In this document: positions 1,751 to 41,260 of the stretch, one piece after another | How positions within the stretch are numbered: position 1 is the stretch's first letter | Layout: each line of letters opens with the position of its first letter | NCBI GenBank assembly: GCA_963924555.1 | Contig: OZ004581.1 | Span: 2,046,001 to 2,110,000, forward strand | Reading direction: 5' to 3' | DNA from: Crambe crambe | Taxonomy: Eukaryota; Porifera; Demospongiae; Poecilosclerida; Crambeidae | DNA: 64,000 nt | Notes under the pieces: model-generated | What the model saw: only the letters and a program-made list of their open reading frames with translations | The model's database searches: none | Told to the model about the DNA's origin: nothing | Translations under genes and position numbers: made by a program

Positions 1751-1875
1751 CAGCCAATGCTCAGAAAAGACTTCCAGTATTCTCTCAACGACAGGGGCCT
1801 CCCCTGGAAGGCGGAAAGACTCGAGGAAATCTCTGAGGGCATCCACCATAGGCACTTTATGCAGAGGTTGCTTGC

Positions 1876-1941
<66 letters not shown>

Positions 1942-4900
1942 CTGATAAGAACCAGGTCTACAATTGTACCACAGCATGGCTAAGCATGGGAATCCTTAGT
2001 CTAGAGATTTCTCATTAACATGATGATAATGATAATACCACATACAGAATGGGAATCAGTTATCATACTAGACCAAAAGGGAATCAGTTATCACACTAGA
2101 GATCTCTCATAAATATCATTACTGGATAGGAGGTCTGTAATGGTACCACAGCATGGGAATCCTTCCAGACCAGTTATCATATTAAAGGTCTCTCATAGAC
2201 ACCACCACTGGAGTTAGGCATCAGATAATAATTATGATAAGAGGTAAGCATGATACCTTTGCCCTCTAGCTCTACAGTAGTTTGCAGAACAGTTGTCATG
2301 CATAAGGCAGAGCTAGGCAGCGGCTCTGGAGTAGCTAGTGGCTAAGAACAATAGGGCTATGAAAACATTTTATTGTTCCCCAGCCACAAATACTTCAAGG
2401 CCACCACCTATCCCTGCCTGATGCATGACAACTGTTCTGCAAACTACTGTAGTAAAGATAACAGAATTCCCACGCATAGCCCATGCTGTGGTATAGTTCA
2501 TTTAATAAGATTTTTTTAGCATTCTACTGTATATGTTATCACAGGTTACCACATTTCATTGATGCAGTCAGAGTTTGGTTAACCACTGACTATACCGCTA
2601 GCTCTGGCAATGGTATTCTCTAGTATGATGTCTGGCCTTGTAGGATTCCCATGCTGCCATGGTGCAGTAATAGTATGTACGAGATACCATTATAAAAAGA
2701 CTTCTAATATGATAGGCCTCACCACGAGAGGTACCACAGCATGGCTAATCTTATTATCTTTACTAGAGCTAGAGGAGCATGGCTAAGTGTGGGAGCTAGA
2801 GGACTGCAGAGGGGGTGTCTTTATTCAGTGGAATGGAACAGTGGAATGGAATGGAGGGGAATGTTAAATTGAGCATGAACTAGTACAGCAGAGGTACCTT
2901 GGTACCTCTGCTCTGGTACCTCTACCTGCAGGACTAGCTAAGCGTGGGAATCCTGTTATCTTTACTAGAGCTACAGGACAGATGTACTGTACCACAGCAT
3001 GGCTAAGCATGGAAATCCTGTTATCTTTACTAGAGCTACAGGACAGATGTACTGTACCACAGCATGGCTAAGCTGGGAATTCTGTTATCTTTACTAGTAG
3101 AACTAGAGGACTGCTAAATCCTATTATCTCTCCATATGCATAGCCACCAGGGTCCCCAAGGGATCAAGGTAACATGATAGAGGTACCACAGCTGTATCCA
3201 CAATGTAAAATTTGTCATCCATACATGGAAAGAGTTGACCGAAAAACTAGGGGGAAGATTGTATGTAAAATATCAATTATGCACCTGACAAAGTTCTCTA
3301 ATATTTCACTGTTCTTTCTCTCCCCAATGTAGTCTCCTATCTTTGCCTTGCTGAGTCCCGGGTTCTCCCGCAGGAAATTGGCCACCTCAGAAGGGTCTAG
3401 GGGGGACGAGAGGATCCCCTGCTCCATCAGGAAGATGATGCCTTGTTTCGGCTTCTTATTGAATTGTTCAGTTGCAGATAAAATCATCTAGGAGAGAGAT
3501 GACAGTAAGTGGATCAAATTTTGGGATCAGATTTTCCATAAACTATTTCATGAATGGATACATGATTATAGAAGTGTCCTAATCATAGAGGAGTCGGGAA
3601 TTCTAACTGCTTTCAGATTAAATGAATGTGTCCTGTTACATGGGAATTTTAACTGCATCCAGATAAAAGGCTGTTATGAATTCATAAGTTACATTTTAGG
3701 CTGGGGCAAGGCACGCTACAATCAGGAAAAAATCAGGATCAGTTTCATATAAGGTTTATTGTTTTTGCTAGAAATAATGATAGGGGAAGTACCTCCAGTA
3801 CCCGACCGACCAACCAACCCTCAAGCTGGGGAGAGGATTATAATCAGTGTGCAAAATAAGAGTTTCAGTTTGATATGACCAAATCCAACTTTGATCAGAC
3901 ATCATACACCGGTCAATTTTTGAGTATATCTATGAATGAGATTTCTTGATAGAATGTTCGACTATGTGAGTTGGAATCGTCTGGTCAAAGAGAAAAAAAC
4001 GATCAGAAAATGGGCCAGTGTCCAGCAGTGCAATTACACTTAACCATGCAACCATTATGTGCTCAATTCACGTATGCTGTGACTGAGTTATGCAGATCAT
4101 TCCTAAATATTAATAAACTTAAGAAGCTTACGTGGCTCCGCCCATAAGCCCCGCCCCCTAACGACGTGCGCTTCAAAATGGCGTCGAAAGATTAACTAGT
4201 GTTCCGAGTGCTCGAATAGTGAAGTAGAGCCTTAGTCAAAACTAATAGCAAAAGATCAGCCTCTAGGTGCCGCTCTAACAGATGGCCAAAGCAGAATTTT
4301 GATGACTATAGCCAGTAATAAATGAGGGGAATGTTTTCACTGACCCTCAGGCATGGGAAAAGGATAGTAATAGCTGGCCTCAGGCAGGGAAGAGGGATAG
4401 TAATAGCTGGCCTCAGGCAGGGGAGAGGGATAGTAATAGCTGGCCTCAGGCAGGGGAGAGGGATAGTAATAGCTGGCCTCAGGCAGGGAAGAGGGATAGT
4501 AATAGCTGGCCTCAGGCAGGGGAGAGGGATAGTAATAGCTGGCCTCAGGCAGGGGAGAGGGATAGTAATAGCTGGCCTCAGGCAGGGAAGAGGCTATACA
4601 ACAACCACATGCACTGCAATTAGTATGCAATTATGACTGAGTTGCACTTGTAATTAAGGGAAACACTTCATTGACCAAAAGTACTTAATAGGTCATGTGC
4701 AGTAGCTGAGCTAATCTCATTATTTGCCCACTGAAACATATGCTGAGGTCAAAGGATGAATTGTGGCTTCATAATGGTAAGGGTAAATACCTCTACTTGA
4801 GCAGGCCGGGAGAGAGCATGCATGTTGTGACTGACTCGTGCAGATCATAATTGATCACCCTCAGACAGTCAGGGGGGAAGGATAGTAATTGCTAGTTTAT

Positions 4901-7900
4901 GTGCTCAATTAGTATGTTATGACTGAGATGAACCATCAAGCTGGGGAAAGGTTATACAACAAACACATGTGCTCAATAATTGGTTAGATACATAACCGCC
5001 ATAACCCTCGGGCCTCAGGCAGGGGAAAGGCTATACAACCATATGTGCTCATTGATAATTAGTATGTTATGATTGAGATGAACCCTCAAGCTGGGGAAAG
5101 GCATGTGCTCAATAATTGGTTATGTTACAACTGCAGTTAACCCTCGGCTTCAAGCAGGGGAAAGGCTATACAACCATATGCGCTCTGTTACATAACCCTC
5201 GTAACCCTCGGCCAGGGGAAAGGCTTATGTTATGACTGAGTTAACCCTCATGCAGGGAAAGAAATACAACGACCACATGCACACTCTGTTACCTAACCCT
5301 CGGCCTTGGGCAGGGGGAAGGCTATATAACCATTAATTAGTATGTTACGACTAAGTTAACCCTTAGGCAGGGAAAGAAATACAACAACCACATGTGCTCT
5401 GTTATGCACATAACCCTCGTAACACCCGGCCTCAGGCAGGGGAAAGGCCTATACAACCATATGAGCTCATTGACAATTAGTATGTTACGACTGAGTTAAC
5501 CCTCAGGCAGGGGAAAGACAACGTTGTCACTGTTTGTTTATTTGTGCAGGTCACATTATTATGAAGGGAAACGAGGATCCTATGCTCAATTAGTATGTTG
5601 TGGCTGAGCTAACCCCAACTTATCGGAAACATGCTGAGGTGTTCTCTTCATTTCCATCCATTGCTATGACAACGGGATGTTTTTCCCCCCGGGGAACTGG
5701 GTGGCCAGAGGAGATCGGGTCAGGGGCTGGCTTAGGATTTAATGTCAACATTGGATTTTCTGAAAGCGTAAAGGATATCCTGTATCAGCTAGGCTTGTGC
5801 CTGTGGTTGGAAAAATGATTTGTTTTTTCCCCAGAGATTGATGATACAGAAAAAGCCATTAACAATGTCTTGCCTCACAATAGACTGTCCTATAGACGGT
5901 TCAGGATACATACAATACCCATTAAAGTGTCCTAGCCTATTCAACTAAGTACATACTGATAAAAGGAAAACTAACAGTAGGATAACTACTACATTGCAAC
6001 TTACTTTTTTCTTCTGCCTGACTTTCAGCAGTTCTTTTGAACAAGTGATGCCTCCCTTATCGACCTTCTCCTCCTCCTCCGCCCCCTCATCAGCCACACC
6101 CCCTCCCACAACCCATTTCTTCCCTGCCCCTCCCGCTTCACTGTTCATGGCAATGCCCATCTGGTACCCCGAGGCCGGCTTGATGATGTCATCATTACTA
6201 TTTATAGCAACGGGTCCCATGATATCATGACTACGAGAGAGGGCCTTTGTCTCGGAGAGAGGGAGGGCACTCCTGGAAGGGGTCAGTTCGGTCACCATAT
6301 CTTCATCATTTGTAGTCATTGATGGAACTGTGTCTGTTACGTGACTGGAGAAAATTATACCTGAAAAAATAAAGTTCAGCCATTTGATTAGCATATACTC
6401 TCTCTCTCAATACAACAATTTTGGGTGAACTAATTAGAGACATTGTCATTTCAGGGGTGAATTAAGGTTCATTTTCGTATTGTAATTGCGTGTTCAGGAA
6501 CCACACTTTAGTGGAAAGAGTTGGCAGCAGCTGAAATGATAAGTATTGGATACAACCTGCTATTCACTTAATGCATTATGTGATTACTATAGACCTAGAC
6601 CATGTGGAAGCTAAAATTACAGGTCTATCTTCCATATTAGCAGAAGCATTGAGCATCTCACTAGACACATTGAATTAGATTATCCTACACTCAAATCAAT
6701 CTTCCATATTAGCAGATACACACTCTCACATGAGAAATTATTAGATAAAAATTGTAGTCGCATGATAAAATTACTTCATTAGTATCACTTAAATGAATTT
6801 TCCCTGATTAAAGGTCATATGATCCATATTATCTGCTAGCACTCACATGTGTGCTATATAATCACATTAAATCTCTTATGGACACATGCCAGAAAGAGAT
6901 TTCCATGGTGACAGTCTATTACTGATAAAGAGACGTTTTGACATACCAGAGATATTAAAATCTGATTACATGAAGTGGTTCAAGTCCAATTTATCTTCCA
7001 TATTAGCACACATGAGGAGTTATTAGATAAACTTAGCCGTTGCTCGCACTCATGTGTGCTACAATCATATTAAATCTCTTCCAGTAAGAGATTTCCATGG
7101 TGACAGCCTATCACTGATTTATTAATTGAATAAAGAGACATTATGACATACCACAGCTGGTGTCATGTTCATGTGATGCAGATTTGAGAATCTGATTAGT
7201 TTTAGAAATTGAATAAAAGTCTATATGGAATGCCTAAGTATAGCTTGTATTGTGCATAAGCACATCAATAGAAGCTCTTTAGCGCAAATCTGATTGTGTG
7301 CATGTGGTCTTTATTCCAGTATATCCTTTGAGCAAATTAACCCACATGCCCATAGAAGCTCTCCAGTGCAGTTGGTGTAGAGGTCAAATCTGATTTGTGG
7401 GCATGTGATTTTGAGGTCTTTAACATTCCCCACCCACATGCCCATAGAAGCTCTCTTGGTGTAGAGGTCAAATCTGATTAGTGGGCATGTGATTTTGAGG
7501 TCTTTAATACTTCCCACCCAACAAAATAGATGAGTTCCGATATTCCGTTGTCTTTACTTAGGGTCATTTCTGGACACTAGAAGAACAATCTTTCCTCCGT
7601 GTAAAGTAAGCAAACAGCTATTAAGTGATGCTATGTTCATGTTCACTATAATATAGTATTTCAATTTTTAACCTTTGCATGAAGAAGTCTAACACTATGA
7701 AGTATAAAAGGTTGTCCTTTATTATATAGAGGTCAAATGCCTCTATATTCAGAGTGTCCTATATTTAGAGATTGTCCCTTATCTAGAGGTGATCCTTTTA
7801 TTTAGAGGGTCAGAGGTCAAATGCCTCTATATTCAGAGTGTCCTATATTTAGAGATTGTCCCTTATCTAGAGGTGATCCTTTTATTTAGAAGGGCATCTA

Positions 7901-9812
7901 TCTAGAAATTGTGAGGTACTCTTCATGAAGTGGTCCTTTACTATTATTCAGAATTAGAGGTTCACTGTACATACCTGCTGAAGTCATCCGTGTGTTACTT
8001 GTGGTTTTATTGATGTGCTGAGTGTCCAGGTCGATCGAGGAAGTCACATGACTGTCTGTTTCCAGACTGTTGGTGATGGCCAGTAGAGCATCTAGGGACA
8101 ATATATGGGTGGAGGATATGGCCCCTTGTGTAGGAAACGAGTTCTGTGGAAAAGGAATGCAGTAAGTAGCACTCATCTTTTCTCACATCACAGCTAGTTT
8201 CTACAAGTGTGTCACCAAACTTATGATTGCCAGCTGGGACATTAGGAATTGTGTTTCTTACAAATTAACACAGTAAACGTTGCAGTTTGTTTTGAAATGC
8301 TCTGTCAGCATTGGGAATTGGGGATATGTTAGCTTTCTCTTTTAGTGTGGCAGGAAACAGAGTCTCCAGCACCCACAAAAGATAAACTTGTTGAATTGAT
8401 ACGAGTGGATGATAAGATTGTTGAATTTTGAGTGGGTGGAAAAAATTAGCTGAATCACAAGGGAAATAACCATACCACCAGATATCCCAAATCATGGACT
8501 CAAACAGACTCTACTTTAATTACCTTAGATAAGACTTTGGTGAGACTTTCAAAGACATTTGTGCAGTAGAGTCCACAGTCAAAGTTCACATACAGCTCAG
8601 CGGTAAAGTAGGGGGTGTGGCATAGCTGGAACAGAGTAAGAATATGCATGTATAATTGTAATCCTATAGTTCAGAATAATTTCCATAAGATCCCAAGGTT
8701 TTATGACCTTTGACCTTTAAAGAATACAAAATTATCATGAGTAAAACCCTACATTGATTGGTGCTGACTTTGTAGATCTGGTATTTTTCCTTTAATGGTA
8801 AAACTAAGGTTTGATACTTTCATGGTTTATGCTCATACCACCACCATGTGATTACAGATGATTTACAAACTATTCAAGTGCCCATTGTTAAAAAATGATG
8901 ATAGTCACCCACATCATAGCCAGCACAAGAAGGACACATGACCACAATGTTGAGCATGATTCAGCAAACAGTAGGTGAGTACTGGGTGTGCACAGATATT
9001 ATTATTGTGTTAATTCCTATAGGAATAATGCTATTTAAGGCATGGTTCATGGCTTGATTAATATAAGGCTACTAAAATTTAGCAATTTTACAACTTTGTG
9101 ATTTTAATTTAGCAGCTCTAATTCACTGTTAGACCCCATTCAAGGCACTCCATGAGTATTTCGAGCAGAAACAATATCAGCGTGAACTTTGAACATTAGT
9201 AACCCATACATAACTTTAAAGGTATAAATCTACCACAGTAACTTCACTAATAAGGCATTTATGGTCTATGGTCTGATATAATACCTGCGTAGATCCTCTG
9301 GGAATTGAGAGTAAAAAATAATTTTTTTAAAAAGAATTTAGGACGAGTAGAAATGATGCAAGCTAGGGTGTGTGCATACAATGGGTCTATTGAAATGCTT
9401 AACTCCTCTGGGATTTTGGGATCCCAATTATAGTCAATGTTGATATAACATTAATTTTGCAGTCAGAACTGAAGGGTATTTTAAGATGTAAATGTATAGG
9501 AACAATGGTTATGCATACATACAACTATGGTCTGGTCATTCTATATTCCCAATGGATTTAGAAGCTATTGAGAAGTCTCCAATGTTTACATGGCATCTGG
9601 AGTCTGTAGTATAACCAGAGTTTCATTTAAGAATCACAATCAACATTGTGTTATAAGATGCATCCACTTACCTGGACCATGGTTTCCAGTGCTAGTTCTT
9701 TTTTCTCATACACAACTTTGAAGGAGCCATCAGCTATCAGTTCCAAAAGACGATTCATAAAAACCTATAGACGGAATAATCAATATGAAGGAGTGTGTGG
9801 AAGTGAGTGAGT

Positions 9813-28260: not shown

Positions 28261-29223
28261 CTAATGATCATCCTGCCCTCTCTCCCGTAGCATTCCTTGA
28301 GAAATCAGAAGCTTTTTCTCCGAATCACTTTTGTGCACTTCAAGAACGTGACCATCTTCAGCCAATGAGATGCTTGAGAATTTTCCTAGGGTGTGTGCCA
28401 ATGCACCTTCGGGACTCCAATCGATTTGGCTGTCTCTAATTTTACCCACCTTGCGAAAAATTCGGTTAGAAAACCAGGTATTCGCTTCATGGGATTCAAC
28501 GATGTATCCTTTGCTGTTGATGCTAACTGAAGGATTTACTCCCCCTTCTTGAAGTGATTCTAACTCCTTCAAATCACTCAATTTATTATCGTTGATACTT
28601 GCTCTCCAGTACTTCAATGTACTACGATATGTGCGAATTGCAATGACGACCATACCTTCACAGAGAGCTATGGTTGGTTCGACTCCATAAATATTATCGT
28701 TAAATGGCAAAAATTCAACTCCCACTGGCCAATCGATGTTTCTATTGTCTATGTTCACATTGCCAATTCGGTACTGTAATCCATATGCAGCTATTTTTTC
28801 TTTCAGGATAATAACTGTACCATCATCCTTGGCACAAACTTTAGGCTTAAACCCATAGCCAAGTGAAATAGATTGACCCCATTCGATTGATCGATCAGCT
28901 TCATTTACTCTGCCTACCCTGAAGAAGCATTTTCGAGGAGGCCCAGATGAACAATGAACTTCAATGACATAGAACTGATCATCCCTTTCAATGATCGCTA
29001 TACTTGGATAATCTCCGCTCATTTGTCCTGGGAAGCCCCAAGTAATGGCTGATCCCTCTTTATCGACATTCCCCACAGCATAAGACAACGTTTCATCGAA
29101 ATAGGCACCTCCACTATAAATTATAACAGCACAATCCTTCTTGGGGTGAATACAAATTGATGAATAGTAACCTTCATGAAATTCCGAAGGACCGGAGAGA
29201 AGAAGTTTAGTGGTAGCTGCCAT
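28261..29223 (-). CDS. Beta-propeller-like repeat protein, 320 aa (duplicon copy A)
   Basis: Single-exon gene. The protein is built from about seven repeats of 45-50 residues with the pattern V-G-x-V...I-x-W-G...G-x-x-P-S-I-A...V-x-E-V-H-x-S (for example ITWGFPGQMSGDYPSIAIIE and FYVIEVHCSSGPP), which suggests a seven-bladed sialidase- or lectin-like propeller. No signal peptide or membrane segment. I do not recognise a named family, and no catalytic residues can be assigned. Nearly identical to the copy at 46980-47942. The start is 90 bp from the end of the inserted transposon (29313), so its upstream region has been replaced. Confidence 0.85.
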   Translation of the reverse strand: MAATTKLLLSGPSEFHEGYYSSICIHPKKDCAVIIYSGGAYFDETLSYAVGNVDKEGSAITWGFPGQMSGDYPSIAIIERDDQFYVIEVHCSSGPPRKCFFRVGRVNEADRSIEWGQSISLGYGFKPKVCAKDDGTVIILKEKIAAYGLQYRIGNVNIDNRNIDWPVGVEFLPFNDNIYGVEPTIALCEGMVVIAIRTYRSTLKYWRASINDNKLSDLKELESLQEGGVNPSVSINSKGYIVESHEANTWFSNRIFRKVGKIRDSQIDWSPEGALAHTLGKFSSISLAEDGHVLEVHKSDSEKKLLISQGMLRERGQDDH

Positions 29224-29383
29224 GATCCATACACGTACACGCCCCCTAATAGTAGTCAGCTTGCCCGCGTGACGTCATTGTATGCTGCGCTGACGCATTC
29301 TAGTTCTGCGCATACTGCAAATTTCACTTCCGTTTGAACATCGAGTTTTGCGTATGACCTTTGACCCTCATTACCACTGTATA

Positions 29384-29430
29384 GGCGCGCGCGCGCGGCG
29401 CGGCCGGCGCGCGCGGCCGGCGCGCACGGG
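29384..29430. repeat. CG-dinucleotide block near the transposon left end
   Basis: Almost pure GC alternation (GGCGCGCGCGCGCGGCGCGG, then CCGGCGCGCGCGGCCGG) inside an otherwise AT-rich element, 70 bp from its terminus. Confidence 0.85.
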
Positions 29431-29977
29431 TGTTTTGATCCCAATATGCGCATGGACAGTAACTTGTAAATGAAATTTTTTCACTATGCCTAGTAATACC
29501 ATAGCAACGGTGTTTCCTGGTTTAGCACTATGCACTTAGTGACCATTTCCGGGGTCATAGTACTTTACCAGCCACGTGGCAATAGAGAAGAAGAGTAGCT
29601 CTACAAACTGGTGAAAAAACGGGGGAAAAAGAACAAGTGTGAGAATATTTACACGCGCTTGAACTTTGAAGGAGTCTAACTCTTGTTTATACCATCCAGA
29701 AAGTTTGTAGACAGGAGAATAGCAGTGAAAAAGAAAATCCCATCATCCTGCTTCTAGGTAATATCAGTATTATTTTACTTATAATTTTTTCCAGAGAGTT
29801 ACAGCCATATGTATATATGCATGTTATTTGGTTCAGTGTTAGACATCCTTTGGTTTGGGTTTAGGCTGAGGTAATTTAAATGTGTTGATAGGACATATCT
29901 GCCTAAAGTGCTCTGTCATTATGCACTCCAGACGTTGCACACTGTTAGGCATATTGATGTAGCTCCTTTTGATGGCA

Positions 29978-32900
29978 TTAAAATGAGCATGAATAGACTG
30001 CTCCCTGTTCCCCAAGAAAACCTAAACCAACTCTCCATTTTTTCAGGAACGGAACCATGTGGTCTTCCAGCATGTGCATTTTTGGCAGAACTGTCGCATT
30101 TGGAAATGAATCCCTGTAGAAATCCATGAAGTCTTTGATTCTAGAGTCTATTGAAATTAAAACAGGTTTGTACAATGTATATTCATGGCATCCTACTTTC
30201 CAAGCTCGTCTATTTCCTTCTCTTCCAGAACCTTACTGCTGTCATATATTGAATGACATCTAGCAAAATAACTGAATGCCTTAGTAAAGGTTTTTTTGAA
30301 TGAATTGTGCCTTTGGTAGAAGTTGTGAGCATCTGTCCTGGGCCAACTCAACAACAGAATTGCAGAGTGTGGAAATATTTACTTCCTGCTGACAAACACA
30401 TCTTTAACACCTGCTTGAAGGTGCATACTTAGTTTACCTTGAGTGTTCTATGCACGTGGTTACCAATAAATGTTCCACCATAATAGGCCTGCCTATGCAC
30501 ATTGAATGAGATCAATGCTGTATCCAGTGCCAAACAAAAAGGGCCATCCTTTCTTGAAAAGCTCTTCTTTTTTGTTAGTGCTGATAATTCTGTTGTCTTT
30601 ATGATCGAGGGAGTATATATTTAATTTTATTAGGTGTATGACTACTTACTATGGCATCCAACATTGCTTTATGCTCTTTGATGGCTTTGGTTACGGATAC
30701 GATTGATGGATCTGATGGACTGCTGGCATTGAGGGCACAAAGCATCAGAGTCTGATCAAGCCACTTCAGATGTTGTTCAAAGCTGTCTTTTATATCCAGC
30801 AACTCCCTTTCCTTCCTTACCAAGTCACAGTACTTGGCATATCCAGGTGAGTCTTCTTCTTTTGAGGAGTGTAGGGCCATTTGTATGTCCAGCTCGTGAC
30901 ATTCATCCTCCAATAGTGTGAAGAGACGAAAGAAGATACCAAGAGTGATGTGTAAGCCAGGAAGACAGACCTAAGTGACAGGTTAGTATATTATTTGTAT
31001 TTTACTCTATGTATTATTTGGTAATGGTACCGATTCGATCTCAATATTAAAGATATGTGATGCCATAGCATTGTTAAATTCTTTGGCCCTCTTGATGTTG
31101 CCACCATCAGCAAGGAAGTTGGAATAGTCCTTCTTGATCCCTTCCAATGTTCGTTTGGTGCTGGTACCACGTTCGGCTATTGGGATTTTTAAATCTTCAC
31201 TTTTAATGAGGCACCAGAGACAATTGTGGCGACCTACCCATTTTTTGATAATTATTTGAAAGGAATAGGACTATATACTTATATCCTTACCACTTGCTCC
31301 TGATAACCCATACAAGTTACAAAGAAACTCGTAGTCCCCTGATAGGAATACACATGTGATTTGGTTTTCACCTGATGAGTTCCTATAATATACTGTAGAC
31401 CTTTTCTTCTGGTACTATTATTATGCATGTACCTCCATACAAGCTTTTTTAAATCATCAACTTGTGACTTGTATGCATCCAAGGAGAGAAGCAGGTTAGT
31501 TTTGCTGTCTGATGCCTCGTAGGCTACAAACACACGTGTTTGTGACTGCATTTGGTTTTGAGCAGTTTCCAATTTGAAAATTCATCTTCAATTTCTGTTG
31601 GTAAACAGAAATTCTTCCAGTACTCATCATCTGGTGACACCAAAGAGCCGATCAACAACGGTAAACTCTGACCGAGGAGCCACATTTGAGAGGCTTCAAA
31701 AAATAATAATTTTTTCAATGTGACAGAATTGAGTCGGGAAGATTTTACCATTTTGTTTGAGTGAGTTGCTATCATTTGTCAGTGTTTCTCTAGTAATTGG
31801 GCTGGGTCTATTTTTGGTGTCCATGTATCCGTAATCAAAATTTTCGAGCCTAAAGTTGAGTTCATCCAGTGTAAAACACTTGTCTTCATACACAAATCTT
31901 TTTAGCATCAACTTGGCCTCGTATTGCAATCCTCCTTCCAACACATCGTGCATTATGTCTGGTATGAGTGCTCCATTACAGGTATGAAAATATTTCAAAC
32001 CATTTAGGATACATGTACTATTAATTCCATATTCTACTGAGAGAGAATTGGTTGTATCCTGTTCAACTTCAGTACACTGTTTATTGTGTTCATCTGGTGT
32101 ACGTAAGTCACACTGGTCTTCATGAGCCTACACATTTGATATTTTAAATAAAGCCCACTATTACATGTAATAAAAGTAGTCACATTGGGAATATGGGTTG
32201 TGTACATAATGTGACCGTTCTATTTAGAACCCACCCACCATCAGCTTATTGATACTTCCAATCAGTTTTATATCCTCATATTTAGTAAGAACCTATAAGC
32301 AATTGATCCTTCCTTGAAACCTCCAACTGCACAACTCCCAAGGTTATCAGCACAAACTGTAACAAGAGTTCCATGTACTATAGTTTTTCGTCCATTGTAT
32401 AAAAGCTGTATTCCATTCTCCTGTTTGTGGGAAAGGGTTAAATATGGCATTTGATTTAGTAGGACTATTAGCTATTGTACCAGTTTCATTATGTCCTCCA
32501 TTATAGGCTTCAGGATTGTATTCATAGAGTACTTGTCAATGAACTTTCGTTTAACTATTGCAAGTAATTTGATGTGGTTGATTTTAGATCTCATTGTAGG
32601 TGGCAGGTTGTTCTAAAATAGTTGTAATTAAGCTAGTGATCTCATCAATTTTTGCTTGGTTACCTAATTTGTGCTTCTTCCGCTTGGAACCTAACGGATT
32701 GCATATCTCTACATCATCAGGTTCAATTGTAGTGCTGAAGAAAAAAAGACTTTGTTTTATAAATTGCCCATCACAGAAGTCAGCTATTACATCAGTACTA
32801 TCGGTACGAGACCTTTGGAGCTATAATAAGAGTATGTTAGTATATATATATAGGTTGAGGGGGCATACATACACACCTGTTTACAAATAGAATCATCTAG

Positions 32901-33622
32901 TAGGAGGGATTGAATCGGTTCTAATAATGGCACATACATCATTACTTCCTTTGTTTGCAAATATTTTCTTTTTCTGCCATGCCCTTTCATTTACTCACAG
33001 TGCCCAGCTCAGGCATTATGACACGTTTTTGGGTATGCATACACTGTGTGTGTAACATACCACAAATCCAAGCTTTTCTTTGCAATGTATGAATTTTCAA
33101 CACTTCTAAATGGCCTACCAAATTTTCCATTTGGATCAAAATTTCTTTCAGCTTTGGAACTTTGCCCATGTCTAGCCTTGCTTCAGTTAAGGCTGACTTA
33201 ACTGCCAAAAATACTTCTGACAAAATGTACCGATTTAAATCAGTAACTCTCTCTATAATTTCTTCAGTATGCTGCTATGGACTCAAACTGAGGGGGTAAG
33301 CCTCTAGAATTAATGCTAGCATTTTCTTGATCTGCTTGGGTTTCTTCCTCCTCACAAACCTGTATTTCACCAGGATCGTAATGAGTGCTAGTAGATTGGT
33401 AGTCTCTAGCAGTTTGGGGAGGCATTCATGATCACTATAAATGTGGTTAGCGTATGTTTTCATATTTGTAAAATGTCGGGTACAATTTTCTATCGAACAT
33501 TGCAGGGAGAAACCAGGCCTTATAGAATGTACCAAGCGTATGTGAGGCAATAGAAATTGAAATTCGGTAGCTTGAAACTCGGCACAGAGTGGGCATTGAA
33601 AAATAGTTCCGGATGTTGACAT
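29978..33622 (-). CDS. C2H2-finger/transposase-like protein of the transposon (multi-exon, exon borders approximate)
   Basis: Starts at the ATG at 33622. The first exon has two C2H2 fingers (CPLCAEF...HIRLVH and CSIENCTRHF...HIYSDH). Further pieces downstream on the minus strand: LKIHTLQRKAW (33100), MMYVPLLEPIQSLLLDD (32900), NPLGSKRKKHKLG (32690), NLPPTMRSKINHIKLLAIVK (32560), CADNLGSCAVGGFKEG (32320), PDIMHDVLEGG (31940), ASQMWLLGQSLPLLIG (31660), a coiled-coil-like stretch (30599-30913) and LPKMHMLEDHMVPFLKKW with GFLGEQGA (30080). Together they follow the order of a widespread, mostly unnamed animal transposon protein. The D-x-M-H motif could supply a catalytic Asp of an RNase H-fold transposase, which is inference. 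The final piece runs into a stop soon after GEQGA, so the C-terminus is probably decayed. Confidence 0.65.
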
Positions 33623-33713
33623 TGCTATAGTGATACAAGTTAATTTTTACACCAATGTTTTGATTAACTCTTACATAATAGTCTGTTAATTCTACTTAGA
33701 TCCAGCCTTCACT

Positions 33714-34456
33714 AGACACAGGCGGATTCTGCCAATTCCCCCCCCCCCCCCCCCCCCCCCCCCCCATTATGCTTTTTAGCACTGCCACTATATTTTTGCC
33801 ATATTATGCCAAATATTATGCCCAAATATGCCAACACAAAGCATTATATTGCATATTGTCTCTTTCCAAAAGTTTCACTAAGCAGTGAAAAAACTCTTTC
33901 TGATGCAGCCAAATTGTTGCACTGCTAGTGGTGATGCTGAATTACGATGCAACACCTACATCACATTCACATGCATCACTGTAAAAATAAATGTGTAAAA
34001 ACAACCCATTTTTAGGTTATCTGAGTTGCTCAGATAACCTAAAAATGGGTTGTTTTTACACATGAGTTGCAAATTGCAACTCAGACAACCCATTTTTAGG
34101 TTATCTGAGTTGCTTAGATAACCTAAAAATGGGTTGTTTTTACACATGAGTTGCAAATTGCAACTCAGACAACCCATTTTTAGGTTATCTGAGTTGCTTA
34201 GATAACCTAAAAATGGGTTGTTTTTACACATGAGTTGCAAATTGCAACTCAGACAACCCATTTTTAGGTTGTTTTTACACATTTGTTTTTACAGTGATGT
34301 TGATTCTGTGAATCATTCACTGCTGAATAGAAAGAATAGACCATGCAGTAGTGGGTTGTAATGCCAGAAAAATTGCCATTTTTATGCCAAATTATGCCCT
34401 TTGCCATGATGTACCTATTATGCCAAAATTTATGCTGGCATAATCCGCCTGTGCCT
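33714..34456. mobile_element. Nested Mutator-like MITE, 743 bp, 10-bp target duplication
   Basis: Ends AGACACAGGCGGATTCTGCC and reversed AGGCACAGGCGGATTATGCC are flanked by AGCCTTCACT on both sides (33704-33713 and 34457-34466). Contents: a 28-C run (33738-33765) and a palindromic repeat array. It lies between the divergent transposase-like and SAMD3-like genes of the larger element. Confidence 0.85.
33976..34298. repeat. Palindromic satellite, about 84-bp period, bounded by an inverted repeat
   Basis: Three full units starting at 34001, 34084 and 34169 plus a partial one at 34253. Each contains TTTTTAGGTTATCTGAGTTG with its near-perfect mirror, so each unit folds on itself. The array is enclosed by ATCACTGTAAAAA and its reverse TTTTTACAGTGAT, suggesting a third level of insertion inside the 743-bp element. 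Confidence 0.8.
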
Positions 34457-34556
34457 AGCCTTCACTTACTTTATCATGTTGATCTCACGTGTGGCATAAT
34501 GCACATGATCATGCATGCACAAAGCAGCTGCTCGATATTTCAGTTTTTTCTTCAAA

Positions 34557-37272
34557 ATGGAGGAAAAGTTAATCCCTTCCTATTCTTTCAGAGAGTTTTC
34601 TGAATATCTTGCTAACTATTTTGATCAAGAAGTAGCTAATGCTTTTGAAAAGAATAAAATATCAGGATCCTCTTTTCTGAAATTATCAGAGAGTCAGCTT
34701 GGAAGAATGGTGGAAGCTATAGGTGATATAGTGGAGCTTCAGTCACTCCAATCTAGAGTTCATGAAGCTGGAGCTAAGGTGCTTGTTTGATCATGTCCAA
34801 AGTCAGGCTATCATTCTGTGATTGCTTGTTTTAATGCTAAAATATTATTTACCAAGTAATTAATACAAGTTGTTTGTGTTGTTTATTATGCAGGTTGCTG
34901 GTAATTCTGATAGTTGTATTAATAGTGCTCCATTTCAAACTGTAAGCAATATCAAGATCGGTTCTACTTTATTAATGTAGGAATATATTTATGTTCACAT
35001 GTAGCTTTCACCCAGTTCCGGTCTTAATGTGGCATTGGCTGAAAAATCTGACTGTTCCGCTCCTAGTGCAAGTTATGAACAACCCAGTGAATAATTCCTG
35101 ATTTGGGGGCCAAGGCCCTGCATTGCATTTGTCTAATTAGGGGTATCTTGTGTACTTGGGTATGCACTGTTATTTCATATGCTGGGTACACTGTGGTTAT
35201 TCCATGCACCATGGACTTCCTGGTATACTAGGGATGTCTATGGTTATACCATGGACTTAGAAGGTGTCATAAGTGTTCCTTGTGTACAGGTTTCTTCGGC
35301 CAGCATTTTCGATTGGTTAAGTTCTTTCAAGATCCCTACACAATTTTCACTTAAAACCATGAGTGCTCTGAAAGGAGAAAACAAGATGGATATTACTAAA
35401 GCTGTGAGATGTGAAATCGTTTCGAGTATTGCTACCCTTGTTATGGTGATACTATCGAACCTACACCCGAACAGTTGACAAGTTTAGCACAACGTTTGAT
35501 CAGCCAGTACCCAATTCTCAAGGATAATTATGGATGTGGATATGTAAGTAATTATCTCAGTAAATTTCTCTTGAAACCATAAATTTGAAGTGTAGATTCT
35601 CACAAAATTAGTAAGCCACTTAATTTTCAAATAATGCACACTAAAATATCGGATTGGTTAGGATTCTGGTTTGGGTCCATTATGGGTACATGCAGTTCAT
35701 TGAGCTATGCTCTTGATTTATTTTTTTACTACTTTAGTATTGATGCCTCATAATAATATGATATTGATTTTTAGACAACTTGGCGAAACAGGTTGAGAGA
35801 AAAATTTAAAAATCTAAGGAAAAGAAAGAAAAAACAGGGACATAACTCGGGTGGTAACGAGGATGATGAACAGTTGTGTAGAAAGAAGCCATGTCTGGAC
35901 ACGGATGAGTATAAATCCAATGTGAAATTATTGAAGGAGGAGCTAAAAAAGAAAAAAACTGAAGTCTAAAACGATTAAGAATATCGTGGATGACACAGAA
36001 CAAACTAGAAGAACGTGGATAACAACTGATGGACCAAGTGTACAGGAAGTACTAACTGAATATCCAAGCCTGCGTTTTCAAAGATGGGTATGTAACGTCA
36101 TACAATATTGAAATGTTCAATTATACCTGAACTTGCAATTATGCCACGCCAGAAAAAGGGGTTCTTAGGTCATCTTTTATGTGGTGTAGAAAGTGTGTGT
36201 TTTTTGTTTTTGTTTTTTTTTTTCCTGGTTAGGGGTTGTCATCTATATTAGGTTCAAATCATCAAAGTAATCCTAATTGCTGATTTTGACTTGGGCATCC
36301 ATCCAAGCTGTTTGGATCGTAACTGGGATCCCTGATAAGGATTTATAAATTGCATCATTCCTTAGCTAACCCCCATAACTAATAATCCTTCTAAGAAAAC
36401 AATAAGTAAAAGGTGGGTATTAATTAGAAACATTTTCTAGGTAAGGAGAGAATTTCAACAGATTATTACTGTCAGCGATGTTCCCACTCTTGTAAATGAT
36501 TGGAATACTGTATGGGTGCCGAAAATTTTGTTATATGGTGATAAAGAATCCAAAGCGAGTAATAGTTTGACCAAAAAGCTAACTGGTAAGTGATACATAG
36601 TTCATGGCAATTAACATGGCTACATAAGAAATTTGAACCGAGCAAGCCCTGTTTTTACACAATATCTGCATACCACTTGTGCAGTGGGTCTCAATGGACT
36701 CCCAACACCTCCATAACTAGGGATGTATCATTATGATGCTAAGGTACTGACTCATTCCTTGAGACCCTTCCTGCATAAGGGGATCTATCGTACAGATACA
36801 CTATTTATTTACACAATCATCTATATTCTTGTTTCAGAGTCATCTCATTATTGTGAGGTTGGTAGGGCTCTTGTCATCTTGGAACATTTCTTATATCCGA
36901 GGTCTTCTAAAAATAAGAAAAGCATTCTTTACTATTATGAACATGTACGTATTATGAATTATGCATACAACGTCAAGTCAGTATACTATTATTGTTATTA
37001 TTGTTGTTGTAGACATGCTGTAACATCGAAGAAGTTTCCCTTGCTTATGGTCAGAGTGAACCATATATATTAGCTGCAGAAGATTCGTGGAAGGTGTTTT
37101 CATGTATTCCTGTGAGAACCTTTTGGATGCTGTTATAGATTATGTGTTGAATATGGAATACCCTAAGAGCATGTATGCTCTGTACATATTTCTTCAACAT
37201 TTTGTAATAGGATTGAAAGACAATAGTAAAATTCCTACATCAGTATTGACTCTGTGTTCTAATTTGCAGTAG
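34557..37272 (+). pseudogene. SAMD3-like protein gene of the transposon (SAM domain; frameshifted)
   Basis: Exons seen: 34557-34778 (SAM-like fold, from MEEKLIPSYSFREF to LGRMVEAIGDIVELQSL), 34894-34941, a likely one near 35004-35090 that ends in a stop, 35290-35543, 35775-36087, 36441-36585, 36838-36944, 37013-37272. Conserved blocks are PTPEQLTSLAQRLISQYPIL, then TWRNRLREKFKNLRKRKKK, then PSVQEVLTEYPSLRFQRW. This layout occurs in proteins annotated SAMD3-like in fishes and cnidarians. Frameshifts occur near 35440, in the A run near 35960 and near 37110, so the copy is probably dead. Its function is unknown. Encoded divergently from the transposase-like gene and convergent with the RAG1-N-like gene. 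Confidence 0.7.
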
Positions 37273-37689
37273 CTGTATTCATGGTTAACTTTATCTAATT
37301 ATTGTTTATTTGCTCTGGATTTTGAAAATTAATTTTGTTGAAAGAGTTTTTGTTACTTTGAAAGAGTTGACATGACTCCACAGTGGTGTACTTACATTAC
37401 ACCTCAGAGGGGTAACAGTTACCCAATGATAAGGGTTTAATTTGCCCAGTCGTGGGAACTCCAATTTTGGGGTTATCATAACCCTGAATTTTTAACAGTG
37501 TGGAGGCTTCACTTGAATCTATTCGGGGTGTGGTCACACGTACTACTGATATCGGCTAGTAAATTGTAATTTTGAAGATAGAATTGGTTAACGAATTAAT
37601 TTTAGTGCCTTACCTTTCCACCTACAACTAATGAATCCATTGGTGGGCATCAATTTGTCAACTAGTAAGCCTATTGCTTGTTTTTCCAT

Positions 37690-38505
37690 TCAAGATTGAG
37701 TAGGGATGTCTGAGGTGTGCAAGAGATGGTTGACAGTGATCTTTGAGGGAGATGGAATTTCAACGTGGGTGCAGTTTGATGTAATATGCAGCTTCAGATC
37801 CTTAAGTTGCATCACTTCTCCACAGTCATTCTTACACCTCACCAAAAGGCTACTGAATACTTTCATCACAACTGGAGATGGAATGCACAGGTGATGAGGC
37901 AGTATAGACCTTCCATTGCAGTTACAGAGAAGAGAGCTACCACTTTCACAACTGCTGACAATACAAGGTACACATATATAGTGCCGGCAAGTTGCTATTT
38001 CCAGTGGTTGATTCGGAATGCAGGAACAGCTCAAACAGAGCAAATCATTCAGCATGGAATTGGGAAGGAAATAGGAGGGTTGTAGTTGGAAATTCACAAA
38101 TTGGGGTGGATCGATTTCAGCTACTCTGGTCATTATCGATCTATTCATGTTATCTTGGTCGCCCTTTCACTTCTAATGCTACTTTCCTTCTTTTAGGCTT
38201 CCCACCACCTGACACAGTCAAACAAACTTCACAATCTTCAGAATGTGGAAGCCATGATTTTGATTTTAAATTGGTGGATCGTACTTCACCCCTTTCCTTT
38301 TGGATCTCTTTCAATGTCAAGTAGCAGCTGTTGCACACCACTGGAGGGTAGATATTGTCAGATTCAGAAGAGACCTCCAGGCTGAGCTCTGATAAGAGGA
38401 TACCCTTACATGCAGCACTATATTTATTATGTTCATATCCTTTAGGCTTCTTTCCACACACCCTACATCTATTTTTAATGCACTTTTTATGATGCTCCAT
38501 AGACA
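37690..38505 (-). pseudogene. RAG1 N-terminal-region-like protein (zinc-binding plus RING), one frameshift
   Basis: The first part (38505-38153) has CRVCGKKPKGYEHNKYSAAC, IYPPVVCNSCYLTLKEIQ, LPHSEDCEVC and a basic KPKRRK stretch, in the order found in the RAG1 region before the RING (RAG1_imp_bd). The second part (38148-37690) has a C3HC4 RING (CLSC, then CRHYICVPC, then CNC), followed by VRCKNDCGEVMQLKDLKLHI, as in the RAG1 zinc dimerisation domain. It stops soon after, at 37690, so the recombinase core is absent. The two parts are offset by one base near 38155-38165 (GGG where GG keeps the frame). An acceptor TTTTTTTTCAG precedes 38505; the first exon is not resolved. In jawed-vertebrate RAG1 this region is a ubiquitin ligase and regulator. 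Confidence 0.8.
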
Positions 38506-39512
38506 CTGAAAAAAAAATTATAAGTTAAATATTTTATTTATAGTATTATAATTTAGACCTTCTTCATTTGTTTTATCAGTGCAATACCTGAATTATTATT
38601 GTTAGGTCCAGACCACAAGGAATTTCAAGACGGTGCCTTCTCCAATGAATACCGATGTTTCATAGATAGTTGCTATGGTATCGATGCGCAGTTGTGTTTA
38701 GCGTAAAAACCACTTATGCGCGTGGTTTAGACCGGGTTTTCCCTTTGTTGTTTGACCTTTTGGGGCTATCTCTAGGGCTTCACAGCAACCGAAAAGGTCA
38801 CAAAGCCCCTAGCAACTACTGCCCATCGTTGTCGTGCATAATGTAATTTAATTTTGTTAGACCGGAAATGTTGAACATGGAATTTAATTAAGCGAATTGC
38901 CCAGGCAAAACACCCGTAGGCCGTGGTATAAAATTGCAATACAAAACATGCGCAGTAGCCCACGCAATGTTCAAACGCAAGTGAAATCTGCAGTACGCAT
39001 AGAGAGTAATTAAATTTATGGGAGTTGTTCTTTCCAATTCAGTGATATCTACAGCGATGCACCAACAATCCCTGTAACTAGACAGTCACATTTCCTGTGA
39101 TATGAAGGAAGTTAACGTGGGATGCCTGCTCGATCAATTTAATAACTAAATTGCTCCAGGAAATGCAAAATAGCTATAATTATATTAAACTAGCTAGAGA
39201 TTTACACTGTAATAGAAGCTGGAATGGAGAAGCAGCTAATGTGGAGCACCAACTTAAATAATAAGCAATTCTCCCGTTCAAGGAGTAGCTAGCTGGTTAT
39301 TTGTTTTTCATTTGTTTGTTTGTTTATTTGTTATCACTTTTACCTTTTATATGCTTAGCACTGTTTTATGCTCTTAAGTTAAAACTTGACAAGGAATGCA
39401 TGAATTAGCATTCAAATACTAGGGCATGACTAGCACTCAAACACATACATGTACAAGACAAAGTAATGCCCTTGACAAGCAAGCACTGAAATAAATAAAA
39501 CACAGGATCTGT

Positions 39513-41260
39513 TTATTTATTAAGAAAGTTCTTGATAAAGGTGAAAATAGGAAATGTGGCAATTCCATTGATAAAACCTCTTACAAGTGTGGGGTTAAGT
39601 CCATTCACAAATACTTTCATCCCTTCTGATCTGACGCTTTTCCTGATGCAGTCCAGAATACCACTGTTTTTCCTTTCTATATCATTCTGGAAGCGTGACT
39701 TGATCACATCTACAGGATACCAAATCCAGGTTGCAATCCCAGTCAAACCTCCTGCGAGAGATAGATAGATGACCCCAAGTTCATTAGGATGCTTTCCAGT
39801 GAGCTCAGCAAACTTCAGCCGAGTATAAGCATAGGTGCCAAAGTAGATCCCAAACTGTGGTACCTCTCGAAATATCGTTAACCACCATCCTTTATACATT
39901 CCCCTTAGTCCTTCCTTATGAATAATCTCTCGTGTTGTCATTAGAGGTCCTTTGTAATCTCTGAATGCCTTGTCTTCAGCAACAGATAGATTAGCACTCA
40001 TTTTTCTCATAGTCCATGAAACATGCTGCTTCCCAATACTCTGATTTTGCAATCTGATCTTAACTAACTCCATAGGAGTGGTGATTATACACTGCACAGC
40101 ACCGGCACAGCACCCAGCTATGACACTGTTCTTAACACTCAAATTCGTGCTGTCATCATTTCTCAATCTTCTGTACACCATTGACTGAACTCCAAATACA
40201 GTTGCATTGATTGCAGCTTGTCCCAGTAGAGGGTAAGTAATTCCCTTGAAGAGACCTTTCATCTGTATATATTACAGTTTGGAAGCTATATCAGAGGCAG
40301 AAATACGTACATGGGAGAGTTGACGGCATGCATGCATGTTAGCTACCATGTACATGTGTTAACAAGATACGTATCAATGTTCATGCATGTTCTATAGCTG
40401 TTGTTTTGGCTTGAAAAACAACAACAATGTAACAAAAACAAAGGAATTTACTTGTCAAAGGTGCTATAGTGTTGTTCATAAAAGAAAATTGATGTGACCC
40501 AAATGTGGGCCCCACCCCTCACCCTCTCCCAGGATTTCTGTCACTGTTTTAAGCTTACTTTTTCATTTTTGATAATATCTTTGAAGCATTGTACTGCACT
40601 GGAGTACCTATCACCATGTGTCTGCATTCGAATCTGCCATCATGGCATGCATGCACAATAAAAATTGCATTTATTATACATGTAAATCAATATTGTGTGA
40701 AATTGAGTAGCTATATTGATAAAAACCCTCAAGTGCTTCAACTGTGCTTAGAAGTTCATAGCTGAGTGTGGAGGAAGTTGTGTGTCACTAGTATACACTC
40801 AGTATCAAATTTCCTACAAGCTATGGATAATATTATTTTTACTCCCTCTCTATCATCTTATACGCTTGCCAAGATTTTGGTAAGTTGACTGATCAGGTAG
40901 AAATAGATGGCTCCTCCATGCCATACCTTGGGATATACATGGGTCTAAGTAGCCCATGGCCACTAGCTTGACCTGCAGGAGCGACATGCATAGGTCCAGC
41001 TAATAACCAAAGCCAGTTAGCTAGCAATCAATCTTGTATGACATTAGGTCACTAACCTATATAGCCAGGCAAGAAAGTGCCCATGGATAACTACTATAGT
41101 ACTCACCCTTATAGTGTCCCATGGATGGCTTACTATTAGACCAGCACAACCTACAGTATATTGAGTAGAATAAGTTACATAGCTAAGTATGGTCATATAG
41201 TTAGCTAATGACAATACCTGCAAACCAGCCTGCCACGAAACCATTTATATCTTCACCCAT
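39513..41260 (-). CDS. Mitochondrial carrier, SLC25A29/45/48-like (duplicon copy A)
   Basis: Inner-membrane solute exchanger. Exons 41260-41218, 41150-41107, 40633-40559 and 40262-39513 are all GT-AG with consistent phases and give 303 aa starting MGEDINGFVAGWF. All three carrier signatures are present: HPWDTIR, PMELVKIRLQ and YPVDVIKSRF, with the G-x-Y/F-x-G-x-x aromatic motifs (GMYKGWW). PMELVK plus YPVDV resembles the basic amino acid/carnitine-type subfamily, but substrate cannot be fixed by eye. The ATG at 40262 is only the first codon of exon 4. An AATAAA overlaps the last codons before the stop (39516-39521). Separated from the copy A propeller gene by the transposon. Confidence 0.92.

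Follow-up and report, generated by a model that had tools for sequence, protein, structure and literature searches.

The question raised by this locus is whether a homologue of the N-terminus of RAG1, the enzyme that recombines vertebrate antibody genes, travels as one gene of a large multi-gene transposon, or whether it belongs to a smaller element that has become entangled with others. The locus lies at positions 29313-38996 of a 64,000-nucleotide stretch of the genome of the sponge Crambe crambe (GenBank assembly GCA_963924555.1, contig OZ004581.1, positions 2,046,001 to 2,110,000, forward strand), and this whole stretch is referred to here as the window. In the original prediction, TACTGCA ends bound a single 9.7-kb transposon with three gene blocks, which were described as transposase-like, SAMD3-like and RAG1-N-like. 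We hold with high confidence that the region is a nested and chimaeric transposon, in which a Chapaev element was interrupted by a CACTA-like transposon and a copy of the product landed in a miniature inverted-repeat transposable element (MITE). The RAG1-like part is the front of the Chapaev transposase, encoded by its first exon, and not a separate accessory gene.

Three nested elements, with TACTGCA as the outermost ends

Positions 29000-39400 of the window were read on both strands, and the genome (143.1 Mb) was searched with two pieces of this region, 2 kb from its left side and 4.5 kb from its right. Nineteen stretches were taken around the genome matches, and the window was mapped onto each of them; all counts from the genome searches refer to the matches listed and are lower bounds. 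Separate parts of the window recur with different partners in the genome, and therefore several elements were recognised, with the following parts.

29313..29383, plus strand: MITE left arm (TA followed by CTGCAAATTTCAC...), including the duplicated target bases gtata; the arm recurs alone
29384..29424: GC-rich filler of 41 bp, made up of little but G and C (GGCGCGCG...), which separates the Chapaev end from the MITE target site
29425..31590, minus strand: Chapaev left part, which bears the terminus CACGGGTGTTTTG and encodes, with a frameshift in the window, the 3' part of the transposase core from about residue 497 on
31591..31601: junction filler, identical at all three composite loci
31602..37500: second transposon, putatively CACTA/EnSpm-like, left end lost and right end CACTGTTAAAAATTCAGGGTTA complete
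31602..33646, minus strand: transposase-like open reading frames (ORFs) of the second transposon, with a C2H2-like N-terminus and a DIMHDVLEG motif
34557..37272 (approximate), plus strand: SAM-like accessory gene of the second transposon, with several exons, apparently broken
37501..38925, minus strand: Chapaev right part, with the terminus ...CAAAACACCCGTA at about 38919 and then GGCCGTG before the MITE arm
37502..37555, minus strand: first codons of Chapaev exon 2 (residues 303-320), up to the point at which the second transposon breaks in
37591..38500, minus strand: Chapaev exon 1, with the RAG1 N-terminal zinc region, a RING-like finger and the next zinc finger; frameshift near 38160
38926..38996, plus strand: MITE right arm (...GTGAAATCTGCAG followed by TA), beginning with the second gtata copy

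The inverted TACTGCA ends are indeed present at 29313 and 38996. However, they are the arms of a MITE and bound no 9.7-kb element. Among the matches listed, the left arm (29313-29383) was matched alone in 30 of 50 (query 1-71, once 1-76), and the partner arm was also present at many of these places. Sixteen places were sampled because both arms were listed near each other, and all 16 read CACTGTATAAAATTGC without a break at the point of the split in the window copy. These uninterrupted copies are the empty site for the window insertion, and the insert is flanked at the split point by GTATA (or TATA) on both sides. The MITE ends parse as TA, CTGCAAATT...CTGCAG, TA, with 132 bp between, in 12 of the 16 copies, the motif search having left 4 unparsed. 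Because these 12 parse with TA, and only L051 among them matches in the four bases farther out, as the window does (cgca), TA is the likelier target duplication of the MITE; the predicted 4-bp duplication is real as letters and probably due to chance. Common flanks were seen among the sampled copies L050, L060 and L061, and also for L052 and L064.

Inside the MITE lies the Chapaev element, of which five shorter copies (L029-L033; about 4.2 kb) have the left part in common; it begins at 29425, or at 29478 for L032 as aligned by BLAST, and continues to 31590. In four of the five the match is taken up again at 37501, L032 being truncated, and their right limits are 38920 (L029), 38917 (L030), 38877 (L031) and 38917, in three pieces (L033). 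All five lack 31602-37500 and have other sequence in its place, which in four of them is about 625 bp long and coding. According to the description in PMC4079192, Chapaev elements generally have target duplications of 3-4 bp and CAC/GTG ends, and their transposase shows the motifs C(2)C, LH and H(4)H. The elements here have inverted repeats and end in CAC...GTG, CACGGGTGTTTTG on the left in all five short copies and CAAAACACCCGTG on the right in L029, L030 and L033. Duplications of 4 bp, GGGT in L029 and CCTC in L030, flank two of the three short copies with both ends, and the duplication around the Chapaev insert of the window is 4 or 5 bp. The 41-bp GC-rich filler was found in the window copy only, among copies with the left end seen, and not beside the left ends of L029-L034.

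The interrupting sequence, 31602-37500, also has relatives of its own. The matches in L042, L043 and L044 extend to 37500 or 37501 and have different flanking sequence, and that in L045 stops at 37493. Sequence to the left of 31602, absent from the window, is shared by L042 and L043; L042 has further transposase-like exons beyond the point at which the window is truncated, and L043 keeps both ends of the transposon (1782-8250). The terminus CACTGTTAAAAATTC is found in the window, L042 and L044; in L043 the corresponding end reads CATTG and the opposite end CACTG. The transposase-like minus-strand ORFs and the plus-strand SAM-like gene that were predicted are present, although the SAM match is weak (E 0.013, under the cut-off; 0.076 with the exons joined). 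We presume a likeness of 31602-37500 to animal CACTA/EnSpm elements, which we take to combine a C2H2-like transposase start with a SAM-like accessory gene, and this likeness, together with the CAC...GTG ends, suggests the label CACTA/EnSpm-like. The transposase-like exons (five from L042 and the window ORFs) had no Pfam match above the cut-off, and no clear duplication is seen in L043, where the 3-bp flanks cta and ata are not an exact match.

Two smaller insert-like stretches were noticed within the second transposon. Window 33974-34300 holds 3.2 units of 84 bp bounded by CACTGTAAAAATAAATG and CATTTGTTTTTACAGTG, and forms another MITE-like insert. It is enclosed by an insert-like segment at 33716-34457 that is bounded by CACAGGCGGATT and AATCCGCCTGTG, contains a run of 28 C and is rich in ATTATGCC.

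A single 9.7-kb transposon would account for the position of all three gene blocks between both TACTGCA ends, for their co-occurrence at three loci and for the cgca repeat outside the ends. However, the outer arms stand alone as a MITE whose empty site occurs in every sampled copy, the flanks of the window copy, with its MITE arms, recur at neither of the two further composite loci, and the SAM block has free copies with an end of its own. Moreover, five RAG1-N copies lack that block. The outcome named beforehand as refuting the prediction was observed in part, in that copies without the internal SAM gene and with different end points exist, whereas the profile match to RAG1 held. We therefore give this explanation next to no credence and retain the nested structure described above.

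The Chapaev transposase and its RAG1-like front

One of the short copies, L029, reads as a single ten-exon gene with an open frame of 971 amino acids; its nine introns were picked by eye with homology as a guide, and all are GT-AG. Residues 34-114 of the protein match RAG1_imp_bd (E 8.9e-9) and residues 448-545 match DUF1280 (PF06918; E 2e-14) in Pfam. DUF1280 has been described as the Chapaev transposase, in one clade with RAG1 (PMC3985635). The core contains GGDKGG at 488, SGDYEF at 563, CLWC at 584, LPGLH at 650, HMLEDH at 893 and GEQGAES at 914, and these include the Chapaev motifs C(2)C, LH and H(4)H. In an alignment with rows trimmed by hand, the zinc motifs, the LH and the final E are invariant in five of five families, and two Asp are invariant in the four of four and three of three rows with letters there. 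The same exon order was found in L040, L054, L055 and L056, with 43 to 59 percent identity in the core; the stretch of L054 starts within the RING-like part, so that its Chapa region, the part common to Chapaev and RAG1, lies outside.

In the genome as a whole, 24 DUF1280 matches were listed, 23 of them above the cut-off, and for 13 of the 24 a RAG1_imp_bd match lies on the same strand, no more than 4 kb upstream. Relatives of the core were not found in viral contigs or in bacterial and archaeal genomes with two short peptide patterns each, which could miss distant ones. A single contig, C3 (9.68 of the 143.1 Mb), holds 13 of the 24 DUF1280 matches and 13 of the 29 RAG1_imp_bd rows among those listed, and the MITE arms match there at one place only, among the matches listed; this contig may be either an unusual chromosome or a refuge for transposons.

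The homology to RAG1 that was originally proposed is upheld. In the window, the minus-strand coding stretch 38500-37591 gave a RAG1_imp_bd match at 38150-38524 (E 2.4e-10; 40.9 bits, cut-off 23.3), and the N-termini of four of four families match this model (PF12560). The Pfam C3HC4 RING model is matched by one of the four (E 0.0065). A profile of these N-termini, built from four families of the same genome, was searched against the PDB. Among the best 60 of 79 matches, RAG1 (6oem) was found with chain residues 102-384 at E 7.1e-26 and RAG1 1rmd at E 7.7e-14, and other RING proteins, LNX (4.6e-10), TRIM31 (6.1e-7) and more, rank below RAG1 and match with the RING part alone. The revision concerns the gene, since the RAG1-N-like sequence that had been taken for a gene of its own is the first exon of the transposase gene.

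The placement of this transposon outside the Transib/ProtoRAG group holds as far as the sequence is concerned. A core of Transib or RAG1 type was rejected at that level, since the L029 protein has no PF12940 match at E 10 and the PDB search with the core profile gave no chain of either kind. The same genome gave no PF12940 match in a search run without a positive control. The 5-bp target duplication of Transib/RAG1-like elements was not found, the duplications being 4 bp in L029 and L030 and 4 or 5 bp in the window. The best PDB match of the core, 4yxz (dTor_9x31L; E 6.3e-5), consists of five weak repeats, none significant alone, and was treated as chance; the three remaining matches have E values from 0.73 to 1.7. 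A relation between the Chapaev core and the RAG1 core is suggested by the cited papers.

Probable formation and movement of the chimaera

Besides the window, two loci, C20 and C6, carry the Chapaev element together with the second transposon. The left (31583-31614) and right (37487-37515) junctions are letter-identical in all three composites, and they were not found in the other loci searched (L029 onwards) with two edits allowed. The uninterrupted left junction is present in five of five short copies (with two changes in L033) and the uninterrupted right junction in four of five, L032 being truncated earlier. The composite is without about codons 321-495 (about 175 codons), GGDKGG at 488 and the first predicted catalytic Asp included, and therefore it cannot make a full transposase. 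Long and short forms have common ends, and the composite might be imagined as the ancestral form, from which the short copies arose by internal deletion. However, about 625 bp present in the short copies are missing from the composite, and this extra sequence codes for transposase residues about 321-495, which align in other families. An ancestral composite is thus hardly tenable.

In their Chapaev parts, the composites are 98.8-99.9 percent identical to the window and the short copies 93.9-98.7 percent. When the flanks of the three composite loci, about 0.9-1.4 kb in length, were compared at E 1e-3, nothing was found to be shared among them; the only match joins the left and right MITE arms within the window itself. 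Because the junctions are identical at three of three loci whose flanks share nothing, a single origin of the chimaera is indicated. We infer that it most likely formed once and was moved in trans by transposase from intact copies.

Segmental duplication of one locus could also have produced the C20 and C6 composites. The composite identity of 97-99.9 percent and the fact that C20 and C6 are each without one clean end (the right end in C20, the left end in C6) would agree with this explanation. However, the unmatched flanks lowered our estimate of it from unlikely to quite improbable, and the window copy sits in a MITE for which the empty site and a duplication of 4-5 bp are seen. At C6, a right-end piece (C6:743478-744083) lies about 17 kb past the other edge of the composite (C6:714876-726298) in the opposite orientation, an arrangement suggestive of an inversion, a breakpoint of which falls within the element.

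Transposition, the explanation that we prefer, would have proceeded as follows. A Chapaev cut-and-paste transposon encodes one 971-residue transposase, in which a RAG1-N-like third is joined to a DUF1280-type DDE nuclease core. A CACTA-like transposon with its own transposase and SAM-like gene would have been inserted into one Chapaev copy, or captured there during repair, and this event would have deleted about 175 Chapaev codons and cost the CACTA-like element its left end. The chimaera would have kept usable Chapaev ends and been mobilised by transposase from the intact shorter copies, and one of its copies would have landed in a MITE to produce the window locus. The nesting, the ends, the identity of the junctions and the homologies are established by the sequence comparisons; mobilisation in trans, the repair-type origin and the activity of the enzyme are the presumptive parts of this best explanation.

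Several observations weigh against this account. When the exons of L029 were mapped to L030, L031 and L033, broken frames resulted in three of three, and only L029 is open. Among the 24 listed DUF1280 matches, 11 have no adjoining RAG1_imp_bd row, at least one of these being the truncated copy L032. L033 keeps both ends and shows no target duplication. In the window copy, no duplication lies directly at the CACGGG end; the element is set off from the duplicated bases by 41 GC-rich bp on its left side and by 7 bp on its right. No 4-bp duplication is readable at C20 and C6 because of their lost ends, and the window copy is the main evidence that the chimaera transposed as one unit. On the side of homology, a PDB search with L029 alone reached no better than E 0.00098 for a RAG1 chain and 0.043 for RING2, the strong match needing the family profile, and the core profile retrieved neither a RAG1 nor a Transib chain.

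Two features adjoin the nested elements. A mitochondrial carrier gene lies at window 39513-40271 (Pfam Mito_carr, E 4.8e-44), and Pfam gave no match at E 0.1 for the 337-residue ORF at 28261-29274.

Known relatives and significance

The Chapa domain, common to RAG1, was named after Chapaev, and a RING follows it in two Chapaev subgroups (Kapitonov and Koonin 2015, PMC4411706). For this domain, lancelet and sea anemone are named in the text of that paper, and its tree holds more species. Consequently, the RAG1-N/RING/DDE architecture is already published for Chapaev (PMC4411706), and what we report is further Chapaev families of the same architecture. The elements agree with the published ones in uniting a RAG1-N-like Chapa domain, a RING and a DDE core in one transposase and in having CAC...GTG ends with duplications of 3-4 bp (PMC4411706, PMC4079192); they differ in host and families, and in that one locus is a chimaera with another transposon. 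The wider idea, which links the N-terminus of RAG1 to a transposon lineage beside Transib, is in line with what PMC4411706 reports for Chapaev.

Among the TransibSU/ProtoRAG and Transib elements, a RAG1-N-like part is described for TransibSU (PMC4411706), and the motifs C(2)C and H(3-4)H are found in the DDE core (PMC12730594, in which the wider transposase group is described). In contrast, the core examined here matches DUF1280 and not PF12940, and the duplications are of 4 bp (L029, L030) and not of 5 bp. A RAG2-like gene was not noticed, and no search aimed at RAG2 was made. No sponge Chapaev with a RAG1-N part was found in the literature by titles and abstract starts, a search outside which most subscription papers lay and, to our knowledge, Repbase Reports as well.

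The N-RAG-TP element of Aplysia is likewise a transposon with a RAG1 N-terminal homologue (PMC8355894, PMC2996935). In the account of PMC8355894, however, it consists entirely of the RAG1-N-like part. N-RAG-TP may be a Chapaev relative with an unrecognised core, and our finding suggests that it be re-read as Chapaev.

The tempting reading of this locus, in which a RAG1-N homologue is the accessory gene of an unknown three-gene element, is thus corrected, the homologue being the front of a Chapaev transposase. The published case, that the N-terminus of RAG1 with its RING was already joined to a related transposase core, gains many loci from one genome, and here the RAG1 N-terminal third comprises the Chapa domain, the RING and the following zinc finger, collinear with RAG1 102-384. 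If the proposed course of events is true, the chimaera illustrates how multi-gene elements can start, with Chapaev ends and a CACTA-like gene set spreading from one founding event. Tentatively, and at somewhat less than even confidence, we believe that the presence in a sponge of Chapaev elements with the whole RAG1 N-terminal third would place this fusion before the deepest split of animal lineages, and that this genome would show the start of a multi-gene element.

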